In this document: positions 14,211-32,725 of the stretch, one piece after another
How the letters are laid out: every line of letters starts with the position of its first letter
How positions within the stretch are numbered: the stretch's first letter is position 1
NCBI GenBank assembly: GCA_023132255.1
Contig: JAGLYK010000009.1
Location: 1 to 32,725 of the forward strand
Length of the DNA: 32,725 nt
Source of the DNA: Candidatus Pacearchaeota archaeon
Lineage (GTDB): Archaea > Nanobdellota > Nanobdellia > Pacearchaeales > GW2011-AR1
Direction: 5' to 3'
The notes under the pieces: model-generated
Databases searched by the model: none
Seen by the model: the letters and a program-made list of their open reading frames with translations, nothing else
What the model was told of the DNA's origin: nothing
Made by a program: the position numbers and the translations under genes

Positions 14211-15188
14211 TTATGGTTGCATCACAAACTCAGATTTTGCAAAAATATGTTCTCCTAAAATTGTTTTGTAAATTCCCACAAATTTATTTTCGCAAAAAAC
14301 AATAATAATTTTGTCTTTTGCCCCTAGTAAAAATCTTCGTCGAAGATTTTTCGGGGTACGCCTGTGGTGCTCAATTTTAACATTTTTCACTAAATCTTTT
14401 TCATAAATTGGCTTGCCTGTAAAAATTTGTTGAAGTCTGTCTTTTTTTATTTCAACAATAGGGTGCAGTTCAGAAATAATTTCCCCAGGAATTATAATCT
14501 TTCTTAACAATTTATCCTCTTCTTTTTTGTATTCCTCAACTGCTCTTTCAAAATCATACAAATTTACACTTGGATATTTTGCATTATCTTCTAAAAAAAT
14601 TCCTGCTCTCACCCGACGAAGTTCCAACATATGCGCTCCAACTCCTAACTCCTTTCCCAAATCATCAATCAGCTTCCGAATATAAGTTCCTCCTTCAACT
14701 TCTGCTCTAAACAAAATATTTTTTTCAGATTTTTCAATTAATTCAAACTTCTTAATTTCTCTTTCTCTTTCCTGCCTTTTCACCCGCGATTTTACAGGAG
14801 GAGTTTGCAAAATCTTTCCAGTAAACTTTTCTTTAATTACTTTCTTAATTTTATCCAAGGAAACATCTTTATGAATTCTCATTATTCCAACATACTCTTT
14901 ATCTTCTCCTAAAAAATATCCTGTAAGTTTGCAAGCTCTATTCAACGCAACAGGTAAGACCCCTGTGACTTTTGGGTCAAGAGTTCCAAAATGAGAAGTT
15001 TTCCTCAACCCTAAACTTTTTCTCACAAAATCAGAAACATTAAACGATGTTGGACCACTTGGTTTATCAATATTTATAATTCCAAATTCCAAAAGTTCTT
15101 TGGTTGATTTATTCTTTTTTAAATCTGCCAGTGAAAATCTTGTATTTTCTCCAATTGTTTTTTTTGATTTTATTTTTTCTATGTCCAT
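14211..15188 (-). CDS. tRNA/rRNA pseudouridine synthase, archaeal Cbf5/TruB family with PUA domain
   Basis: GIINIDKPSGPTSFNVSDFVRK...SHFGTLDPKVTGVLPVALNRACKL; start set to ATG 15188 because the longer ORF overlaps glmS. Confidence 0.92.
   Translation of the reverse strand: MDIEKIKSKKTIGENTRFSLADLKKNKSTKELLEFGIINIDKPSGPTSFNVSDFVRKSLGLRKTSHFGTLDPKVTGVLPVALNRACKLTGYFLGEDKEYVGIMRIHKDVSLDKIKKVIKEKFTGKILQTPPVKSRVKRQEREREIKKFELIEKSEKNILFRAEVEGGTYIRKLIDDLGKELGVGAHMLELRRVRAGIFLEDNAKYPSVNLYDFERAVEEYKKEEDKLLRKIIIPGEIISELHPIVEIKKDRLQQIFTGKPIYEKDLVKNVKIEHHRRTPKNLRRRFLLGAKDKIIIVFCENKFVGIYKTILGEHIFAKSEFVMQP
14321..14369 (-). repeat. Palindromic in-frame element, copy 1 (inside the Cbf5/TruB PUA region)
   Basis: cccctagtaaaaatcttcgtcgaagatttttcggggtacgcctgtggtg; near-identical to 25671..25719. 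Confidence 0.85.
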
Positions 15189-25338: not shown

Positions 25339-26751
25339 TTACAATTTTTTTATTTTACTTCCTCCACCAACATCTTCAACACTAAAACCTAATTTCTTAA
25401 TTTTATTTCTTAATTCATCTGCTTTTTTAAAATCTCTTTTCTTCCGGGCATCTTCTCTTTCTTTGACTAATTTTTTAACATCATCTGGGATCTTAATTTT
25501 TTCCTTTTTCAACAAATCCAATCCAAAAACTTCATCCATCTTTTTTATTGTCTGAATTTTTCCAACTGCCTTTTCATCACGAACCAATTTCCACAAGACC
25601 TGTAAAGCCCGGGGGGTATTCAAATCATCATTAATCGCAGTTTCAAATTCTTTCAAATATTCTTTATTTGCCCCTTGTAAAAATTTTTTTCTAAAATTTT
25701 TCGGGGTACGCCTGTGGTGTTTTTTATCTTCTTTTAATTCTAAGATTATGTTTTTCAATCTTTGATAAGCATTTTTTGCAGAGCTTAACTTCTTCTCACT
25801 AAAAATTAATTTTTTCTTGTAATGTGTCAGCAAACACAAATATTTAAATTCAAGAGGCTTAAATCTTTTTCTTTCTAATTCAGAAAGTGTTAAAATATCT
25901 CCTGAACTTTTTGACATTTTGCCTTTTTCAAGAATAAGATGGTTTGAATGCAGCCAGTAATTTACCCAGGGTTTTTTCCCAGTTGCAGATTCTGATTGTG
26001 CAATTTCATTTGTATGATGAACAGGAATATGATCTATTCCTCCTGTGTGAATATCAAATTGTTCTCCTAATTCTTTTATAGACATGGCAGAACATTCTAT
26101 ATGCCAGCCAGGAAACCCAACTCCCCAGGGAGAATTCCATTCCTGCTGTCTCACTCCTGGCTTCTCAGAAAACTTCCAAAGAGCAAAATCTGTTTTATTT
26201 TTCTTCCCCCCAAATTTAATTCTTTTGGCTTTTTTCAATCCTTTAATATTCAAACGAGCAAGTTTTCCGTAATCTTTTAATTTAGAAGTATCAAAATAAA
26301 TCCCGTCAGAAGTTTTGTAAGTATAACCTTTTTCTTCAAGTTTTTTTACTAATTCAATTTGTTCCCCAATATATTCTGTTGCCCATGTCCATTTGTCAGG
26401 CATAGTAAAATTTAGTTTTGTTAAATCATTTTTAAAAGCATCAAAATAATGCCGCGAAATTTCTTTTGCAGTTTTTCTTTCTTTCTTTGCAGCCTTCTCA
26501 ATTTTGTCCTCTCCCTCATCAGCGTCAGAAGTCAAATGCCCGACATCAGTAACATTAATAATATGCTTCACATTATAATTATTAAATAAAAGAATTCTCT
26601 TAAGAATATCTTCAAAAACATATCTTCTTATATTTCCAATATGCTGATACCAATAAACTGTGGGACCGCAGCCATACATTCCAACAAAGTTTTTCCTAAT
26701 CGGTTTAAACAACTCTTTTTTCCTCGTTAATGTATTATATAATTTTAACAT
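25339..26751 (-). CDS. cysS: Cysteinyl-tRNA synthetase
   Basis: MYGCGPTVYWYQHIGNIRRYVFEDIL, INVTDVGHL, GWHIECSAMS, HHTNEIAQSE, KMSKSSGDILTL. Confidence 0.96.
   Translation of the reverse strand: MLKLYNTLTRKKELFKPIRKNFVGMYGCGPTVYWYQHIGNIRRYVFEDILKRILLFNNYNVKHIINVTDVGHLTSDADEGEDKIEKAAKKERKTAKEISRHYFDAFKNDLTKLNFTMPDKWTWATEYIGEQIELVKKLEEKGYTYKTSDGIYFDTSKLKDYGKLARLNIKGLKKAKRIKFGGKKNKTDFALWKFSEKPGVRQQEWNSPWGVGFPGWHIECSAMSIKELGEQFDIHTGGIDHIPVHHTNEIAQSESATGKKPWVNYWLHSNHLILEKGKMSKSSGDILTLSELERKRFKPLEFKYLCLLTHYKKKLIFSEKKLSSAKNAYQRLKNIILELKEDKKHHRRTPKNFRKKFLQGANKEYLKEFETAINDDLNTPRALQVLWKLVRDEKAVGKIQTIKKMDEVFGLDLLKKEKIKIPDDVKKLVKEREDARKKRDFKKADELRNKIKKLGFSVEDVGGGSKIKKL
25671..25719 (-). repeat. Palindromic in-frame element, copy 2 (inside cysS)
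   Basis: ccccttgtaaaaatttttttctaaaatttttcggggtacgcctgtggtg; near-identical to 14321..14369. Confidence 0.85.
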
Positions 26752-30290: not shown

Positions 30291-30458
30291 ATTCTTTTCC
30301 TCCTTGCACTTATATCTTAACTCTCAGAATTAGTCCGAACAAATCTTATCTAACCTAACAGTCTAAAATAAAGAATAAGTGGGGCTTTTAAATGTTTCGG
30401 GAGGGGAATTTTAGGCAAAAAATCAACCAAAACATTTAAATACATATGACAATTATCT

Positions 30459-30800
30459 ATGTGTATGAATATTAGTAAGAAAGACTTGTTAAGAATCAAT
30501 CACGGATTTGGAGGAAATCTAAGAAGTGACTCTAGTCTTGACTTTGCATTTGAAAGAGTGGAAGATAAGAAACTCGGAGATTACAAAAAATTAGCTTATT
30601 TGCTGAGAGCAATTTTAGTTGACCATCCTTTTTCAGATGGAAACAAGAGAACTGCAATGTTCTTGACTTTTGCTTTTGCAAAAGAAAACAAAAAGGAAGT
30701 AGAAAGAGATTTACTTATCCATCATATAACTTCAATAGCAAAGAGAAATATTCAGGAAATTAGAAATATTGAATGGAGATTAAAAAATGCAATCAAATGA
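30459..30800 (+). CDS. Fic/Doc-family protein (short, Doc-like toxin candidate)
   Basis: Fic motif HPFSDGNKRT. Confidence 0.88.
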   Translation: MCMNISKKDLLRINHGFGGNLRSDSSLDFAFERVEDKKLGDYKKLAYLLRAILVDHPFSDGNKRTAMFLTFAFAKENKKEVERDLLIHHITSIAKRNIQEIRNIEWRLKNAIK

Positions 30801-30993
30801 AATAAAAAAGATATTGAAAGAGAACAAAGAAGCTTTTGAAATTCTTGAAAACTACGACAAGACTCACGAGCTTCCGTTCCAAAGAAAAAGAATTGACATA
30901 ACTTTGTCAGTGGCAACTATAAATAAATTAAAAAAATTAAAAGAAAAAACAGGAAAACCAATTTCACAGATTATTGAGGAGAAGATTGGGTAA
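30787..30993 (+). CDS. Ribbon-helix-helix antitoxin-like protein
   Basis: KRIDITLSVATINKLKKLKEKTGKPISQIIEEKIG; overlaps the Fic gene by 14 nt. Confidence 0.7.
   Translation: MQSNEIKKILKENKEAFEILENYDKTHELPFQRKRIDITLSVATINKLKKLKEKTGKPISQIIEEKIG
30958..30989. repeat. 32-bp direct repeat, copy A (3' end of RHH gene)
   Basis: ccaatttcacagattattgaggagaagattgg, identical to 31616..31647. Confidence 0.93.
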
Positions 30994-30995
30994 AT

Positions 30996-31529
30996 TTATA
31001 TTTTAATTTCTTCAATAAATTTTTCATTTATTGTTTTTGTTTCAGAAGCCACATTTTTCAAATGATAAGAAATCATTTTATTATTTCCAATTGCAACATA
31101 AATTATTTTTTTTGCAAATCTTTTGATTGTGGCTTTCACTGCCCCTGAAAAATCGCCGTCGTTTGAAATAAGAAATGCCTCATCATAAATATCTGCTTGT
31201 GCATCTAAAACCAAATCAAGTGCTAAATTAACATCTGTTGCTTTTTCAACAAAATAAACTTTTCCATCACGTTTTCTTTTTTCAAGTCTCCCGAAAATAA
31301 TTTTTAGGTTTTTAATTTCTCTGAGTTTGTCAAAAAAACTTTGTTGTTCGGCATACATTTTTAGATTACTTAATTGCTGAACAGGAGAAATATAATATTT
31401 TATTGCAATTAAATTATTTTCCTCTGCTAATTTTTTACAAAACTTTTCAATATCAATTTTACATTTAAACTTATTTTTCACAGAAAAATAAAAATTACTT
31501 CCGTCAATATAAATCACAATTTTTTTCAT
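30996..31529 (-). CDS. NYN/LabA-like PIN-fold nuclease (DUF88 family)
   Basis: MKKIVIYIDGSNFYFSVKNKF...KATDVNLALDLVLDAQADIYDEAFLISNDGDFSGAV; start set to ATG 31529. Confidence 0.85.
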   Translation of the reverse strand: MKKIVIYIDGSNFYFSVKNKFKCKIDIEKFCKKLAEENNLIAIKYYISPVQQLSNLKMYAEQQSFFDKLREIKNLKIIFGRLEKRKRDGKVYFVEKATDVNLALDLVLDAQADIYDEAFLISNDGDFSGAVKATIKRFAKKIIYVAIGNNKMISYHLKNVASETKTINEKFIEEIKI

Positions 31530-31615
31530 TATAAAAAGAAAGCATGGGGTCCGTGAAGATCCCATGGACTTAATTACATTTACTAACAATAAAGAGTATT
31601 TATAGTTTTTGGAAG

Positions 31616-31647
31616 CCAATTTCACAGATTATTGAGGAGAAGATTGG
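31616..31647. repeat. 32-bp direct repeat, copy B
   Basis: ccaatttcacagattattgaggagaagattgg, followed by aagatag (reads ...EEKIGR*). Confidence 0.93.
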
Positions 31648-31723
31648 AAGATAGGAAAGGGTTTTAAATATTTTGGAAAGGGGAATTTGCCCGATGCTGT
31701 TGCGAGATTAGATAGTATTGTTA

Positions 31724-32294: not shown

Positions 32295-32314
32295 TTGTTT
32301 TTAATTCTTAGAAT

Positions 32315-32725
32315 AATACAAAGAGGCTATTAGTAGTTCTATGCTGAAATTGTCGGCGAACCTTCAATCTTACACAAGAACTCTATCAACGTCATCTTCT
32401 TTGACGGCCTTAATTGTCTCGTTTTGCGGATGGCTTCGAGCTTAGATGCATTCAGCTCTTATCCACACAATGCGTAGCTATGCAGCCTGCTAATAACAAC
32501 TGCTCACCAGAGGCATCCAAGTTTCGTTCCTCTCGTACTGAAAACTCGTTCCACTCAGACAATAACACACCTAGTAGATATCATACAAACTGTCTCGCGA
32601 CGTTCTTAACCCAGCTAACGGTCCCTTTTAATACGTGAACTACGGCACCCTTGCACGCTTCTGCACGCGCAGGATAGGGAGAGCCGACAGCGGTGTACCA
32701 AACCTCCCCGTCAATTCGGACTATC
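32315..32725 (-). rRNA. 23S rRNA, 3' portion (truncated by window edge)
   Basis: Minus strand contains sarcin-ricin loop CAGTACGAGAGGAACGAAAC and upstream conserved helices; 3' end position approximate. Confidence 0.95.

Follow-up and report, generated by a model that had tools for sequence, protein, structure and literature searches.

The analysed window, a stretch of 32,725 nucleotides from the genome of a DPANN archaeon, harbors a perfect 32-bp direct repeat, with positions 30958-30989 being identical to 31616-31647 in the comparison of the window sequence. A single gene lies between the two copies (30996-31529, minus strand), which encodes a protein with a NYN domain. The features at this locus are as follows:

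30459-30800, plus strand: Fic/Doc-family gene with the motif HPFSDGNKR, first gene of the putative target operon (Pfam Fic, 3.3e-8)
30787-30993, plus strand: RHH (CopG-like) gene, putative insertion target, ending with PISQIIEEKIG and a stop codon (Pfam RHH_1, 6e-4, just under the cutoff)
30958-30989, plus strand: left copy of the 32-bp repeat, within the 58-bp stretch 30932-30989
30996-31529, minus strand: gene of a predicted NYN-domain nuclease, 177 aa (Pfam NYN, PF01936, 2e-18)
31537-31577, minus strand: conserved 5'-leader hairpin of the NYN unit (AATTAAGTCCATGGGATCTTCACGGACCCCATG; covariance model R1, 56.2 bits)
31597-31604, minus strand: TATA-like box of the NYN unit (CTATAAAT), assigned by inspection of the sequence only
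31616-31647, plus strand: right copy of the 32-bp repeat, which together with AAGATAG restores an RHH end (EEKIGR and a stop codon)

The identity between the two copies extends to 34 of 35 bases (30955-30989 versus 31613-31647), and the chance expectation for an exact 32-bp repeat in the window is about 1.5e-9. While the left copy forms the end of the RHH frame, the right copy with the adjoining AAGATAG would give an alternative end of the same protein, and either copy is followed by a stop codon in frame. No further copy of the 32-mer was found in the same genome (625 kb, 39 contigs) at up to three mismatches. An assembly artefact, which would have undermined the preliminary description of this locus, was ruled out as the source of the repeat, because the independently assembled sister species (L044/L056) shows the same layout. 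The perfect repeat around a cassette carrying only the NYN gene, as given in the preliminary description, is confirmed. RNase P RNA and tRNA-Phe are encoded on the same contig, which also includes the 3' terminal part of an archaeal 23S rRNA gene at 32310-32725. Besides that, two TATA-like stretches with GGGGAATT, which are 73% alike, are located before the Fic gene (30382-30411) and just right of the right copy (31658-31687). The latter is about 95% conserved in the sister species despite being non-coding, and is possibly a small RNA gene or a promoter.

The Fic/Doc gene additionally matches TIGR01550, with a score below the cutoff of that model. Homologues of the RHH gene are present in 22 of 92 relative genomes, and an overlapping Fic gene is located just upstream at 14 of the 19 RHH loci of relatives. 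Based on this recurrent overlap, the insertion target is a conserved Fic-RHH operon, encoding a putative type II toxin-antitoxin pair. The ends of the RHH proteins vary among relatives (EEKF, EECVN, EEKIGAG and others). At about 20 RHH loci of relatives, no NYN gene follows the RHH gene. The empty site that had been proposed as a check was not found at the exact locus of the window, because the gene downstream of the insert is confined to the genus, of which both known species carry the insert.

The NYN protein of the window matches PF01936 with 67.7 bits (cutoff 24.2), and NYN is the only Pfam family above its cutoff; no known homing endonuclease fold family was matched. The AlphaFold model (pLDDT 88) shows a PIN-like fold with clustered acidic residues, and the acidic residues D9, D99 and D124/D126 are conserved. 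The best fold matches in the PDB are VPA0982 (2qip, E 1.2e-12) and the NYN domain of MARF1 (1.5e-5). Judged by profile and fold, the gene product is a NYN-domain nuclease with predicted activity, which has the fold and three acidic active-site positions in common with VPA0982, MARF1 and CRISPR-associated NYN proteins (PMC11346440). In contrast to other NYN/LabA-like nucleases, it consists of a bare NYN domain, is sporadically distributed and is preceded by a conserved RNA leader. The PADLOC model HEC-09, a candidate defence gene, matches 173 residues of the protein with 91.5 bits; this candidate is Hma-embedded, whereas neither a Hma system nor another defence operon is present here. Comparison with the sister species (dN 0.068, dS 0.57, dN/dS 0.12) indicates that purifying selection acts on the NYN gene. 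Its close relatives share 65–88% identity (E <1e-65) and form a group clearly separated from the next members of the family (about 1e-40), and most genomes lack NYN. No match was obtained among viruses or phages as carriers of the NYN gene, and the only plasmid matches, at about 36%, are found in Leptospira.

A common organization was observed in front of the NYN gene. Across 16 loci, AATTAA(G/C) is followed by the hairpin about 15 nt before the start, and a TATA-like box is located about 30 nt upstream of the hairpin at most of them. The hairpin covaries strongly: in the alignment of the 16 loci, 96.3% of the cells are paired compared to 81.8% after shuffling, and 8 of 10 pairs show two-sided changes compared to 3.6 in shuffles. 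The covariance model, applied to 92 genomes, matched six NYN genes of the close set. In addition, beside tRNA-Val, G040 carries a hairpin followed by no more than the first codons of NYN, and it also has a weaker solo hairpin, while a solo hairpin precedes a PIN-type toxin-antitoxin pair in G025. These hairpins without a full NYN gene are decayed copies of the unit. As the hairpin is near-exclusively linked to NYN genes, the leader most likely controls NYN or is processed by the NYN protein. It matches no Rfam family and represents an additional small RNA motif linked to a single nuclease family. At the same position, many of the more distant NYN paralogues (L009-L022, L072-L090) feature a different conserved hairpin in the leader (AUAUACNCCCC..UUGC..GCAA), apparently a second such motif associated with NYN genes.

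While the search of the genome for the 32-bp site remained negative, the search for the NYN gene elsewhere was successful: the unit of TATA-like box, hairpin and NYN gene is found in at least 17 DPANN archaea, where it occupies unrelated sites. Its content is constant across the 16 loci compared, whereas the flanks are unrelated. Copies are intergenic, adjoin tRNA-Val, are enclosed by 12-bp repeats or, in two species, reside in a 23S group I intron. Two cases allow a comparison of occupied and empty sites. Between G051, which carries the unit, and G428 of the same genus, which lacks it, the difference is a clean block of 732 bp without duplication; this block includes a decayed 3' half of tRNA-Val, like that in G347. 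Genome G365 also carries the unit, where G422, G427, G278 and G414 of the same genus have a short intergenic gap, and here a 12-bp repeat is found at both edges (chance expectation about 7e-4 in the edge windows). Loss of the unit in G428 and in the relatives of G365, instead of gain, is possible. The duplication lengths at the unit (58/32, 12 and 0 bp) are inconsistent, and therefore not every insertion makes one. In three genera, the tRNA-Val gene or its decayed 3' half lies tail to tail with the unit. The tRNA-Val remnant downstream of NYN in L063 is significant; a remnant upstream of it was dropped, as it scored no better than shuffles. A long duplication around NYN in G016 (L049) was unusable, since the flanking gene belongs to a multi-copy family there. 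Among the copies of the unit, we found no terminal inverted repeats, common ends or target duplication of fixed length; no recombinase is encoded in the cassette or near any copy inspected, and the RHH end, the G365 repeat and the tRNA-Val and intron flanks share no core site.

In GW2011_AR19 (L058) and B62T1B5 (L059), the NYN gene is embedded in the gene of the 23S rRNA and shares its strand. In the latter, a local RF00028 search detected the two halves of a group I intron flanking NYN, with 30.8 and 28.3 bits (E 9e-6 and 5e-5); both scores are under the gathering score of 50, and the intron was missed by the default full search. By inspection of the preceding exon (TAAGGTAG), the intron site corresponds to L1931. 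In the folding of L058/L059, the last codons of NYN make up P8 together with the sequence that immediately precedes the unit. An archaeal survey of group I introns found that all Pfam-matching intron ORFs are LAGLIDADG genes (PMC6125680), and the NYN-bearing intron of JWKY01000014 is absent from the table of this survey. Our search of the literature on NYN in connection with homing endonucleases or group I introns retrieved no report of NYN in such an intron. With their position in a 23S group I intron, the two close NYN relatives resemble archaeal rRNA group I introns with LAGLIDADG genes (PMC6125680) and CPR rRNA insertion sequences (PMC11270868), whereas the NYN copy of the window lies outside any intron. 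The AR19 contig also contains the catalogued L2593 intron IA3.4. The NYN gene of the AR19 intron is interrupted by an insert of about 53 bp (L058:2102-2155), which could fold into a long hairpin and carries CGAGT at each end, and another loop of this NYN-bearing intron contains a second small ORF of 69 aa without a Pfam match (L058:1737-1946).

The sister species G001 (L044/L056), the sole other species of the genus compared, shows the same order of RHH gene, NYN gene on the opposite strand, RHH 3' end, downstream gene and 23S. Its right copy comprises 58 bp (L044:5071-5128) and matches window positions 30932-30989 with one difference, which speaks against the 32-bp core site suggested in the preliminary description. 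Since the right copy of the sister is 58 bp long, the duplication was probably at least 58 bp originally, and the 32 bp of the window would be the remnant of a trimmed right copy and not an att core. Two independent insertions with different duplication lengths represent a possible second reading. In G001, the Fic gene is lost and a dispersed 67-bp palindromic repeat (L044:4342-4408), present in 13 copies in G001, 8 in G000 and 10 in G017, breaks the left RHH end. Consequently, the proposal that the insertion rebuilt a functional RHH end fails in the sister, and a rebuilt end maintained across both species is not supported. The identity between the two species forms a mosaic, with 95–100% at the NYN 3' end, 72–92% at 31110-31616 and mostly 93–98% in the flanks. 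This suggests later (allele) exchange between the species, or possibly two independent insertions at one site, but is weak evidence because the baseline DNA identity of the two species is 80–94%. For the same reason, we did not accept as proof of homing that NYN diverges faster than its flanks: measured against the baseline, the flanks stand out by an unusually high similarity.

How did the NYN gene come to lie between the two copies? With a high degree of confidence, we attribute the layout of the window to an insertion and not to a local duplication. That a unit containing only the NYN gene inserted in the RHH 3' end and duplicated part of it, as first proposed, is borne out by the RHH loci of about 20 relatives without NYN and by the occurrence of the unit in unrelated contexts. 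Local duplication would mean that NYN already lay beside the RHH gene and that the RHH end was copied across by tandem duplication or gene conversion. It would explain why the repeated part comprises the RHH end only, and rearrangements did occur nearby in the sister, where Fic was lost and the 67-bp repeat inserted. However, NYN lies beside RHH in no other searched genome, the NYN unit moves alone elsewhere, and the right copy runs into the plausible, natural-looking end EEKIGR, as insertion predicts. We consider this explanation very unlikely.

As to the mechanism of insertion, break repair is somewhat favored over a recombinase. A rival reading of the cassette is a minimal non-autonomous element, integrated by a tyrosine recombinase acting in trans, for which the RHH 3' end would have served as the att site to give attL and attR. 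As with integrative elements at gene 3' ends, a direct repeat is present here at such an end, with an in-frame stop on both sides, and the tail-to-tail position of the unit to tRNA-Val or its decayed 3' half in three genera recalls a classical integrase target. Yet integrative elements differ by their recombinase, fixed ends and constant repeat, while here the repeat length varies, the 58 bp of the sister do not fit a fixed core and the site pair is single-copy in the genome. As we observed neither a recombinase near the inspected copies nor a shared target, shared ends or a fixed duplication length, integration by a tyrosine recombinase is not supported and appears unlikely. It is equally doubtful that NYN is a homing-type DNA endonuclease or nickase cutting its own target and spreading with or without a host intron, which would make it, with its RNA leader, a new self-spreading DPANN family comprising free-standing genes and a 23S intron ORF. 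The unit does occupy the position of a homing endonuclease in group I introns (P8 loop, L058/L059), optional free-standing copies lie between conserved genes (G051/G428, G365), and the divergence mosaic inside the cassette is in line with this. But the sites of the free-standing copies share no sequence, the intron copies may be passengers, and the NYN enzymes tested so far are RNases (PMC11346440).

The best explanation is probably that the NYN gene is a free-standing, mobile nuclease gene, which entered the RHH gene at its 3' end, and that break repair duplicated the target. The mobile unit would comprise its own TATA-like box, the structured RNA leader and the NYN gene, and would have inserted tail to tail near the RHH 3' end of the Fic-RHH operon in the ancestor of the genus. 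A staggered or processed break, filled in during repair, would have duplicated at least 58 bp of the target. The RHH gene would still terminate in the left copy, as a stop codon is provided immediately by the insert, and the right copy would represent the displaced old end. Later, the right copy would have been trimmed to 32 bp in the window species, and the left copy of the sister hit by the dispersed repeat. Both this mechanism, in place of a recombinase, and the order of events are inferences. That the NYN protein itself makes the break is speculative; a role in DNA mobility would be hypothetical, because known NYN enzymes cut RNA (PMC11346440).

Free-standing homing endonuclease genes such as SegF and F-CphI spread by intronless homing (PMC6083498). 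The NYN units resemble them in that a single nuclease gene is optionally present between conserved genes and has relatives in group I introns, but NYN is outside the listed homing endonuclease families and the copies have no common target.

NYN proteins are familiar as RNases with roles in housekeeping, CRISPR and defence. The NYN subfamily described here behaves like an optional gene that moves, is preceded by a covarying leader RNA and takes the homing-gene slot of archaeal group I introns, which raises the question of whether the nuclease spreads its own gene or is cargo.

A further, near-identical palindromic repeat of 53 bp is present in the window at 14316-14369 and 25666-25719, in frame in the essential genes truB and cysS, where it encodes HHRRTPKN(L/F)R..FL.GA in both. 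Many more copies are found in the genome of the sister species, and a similar repeat is located about 50 bp downstream of NYN in L057.
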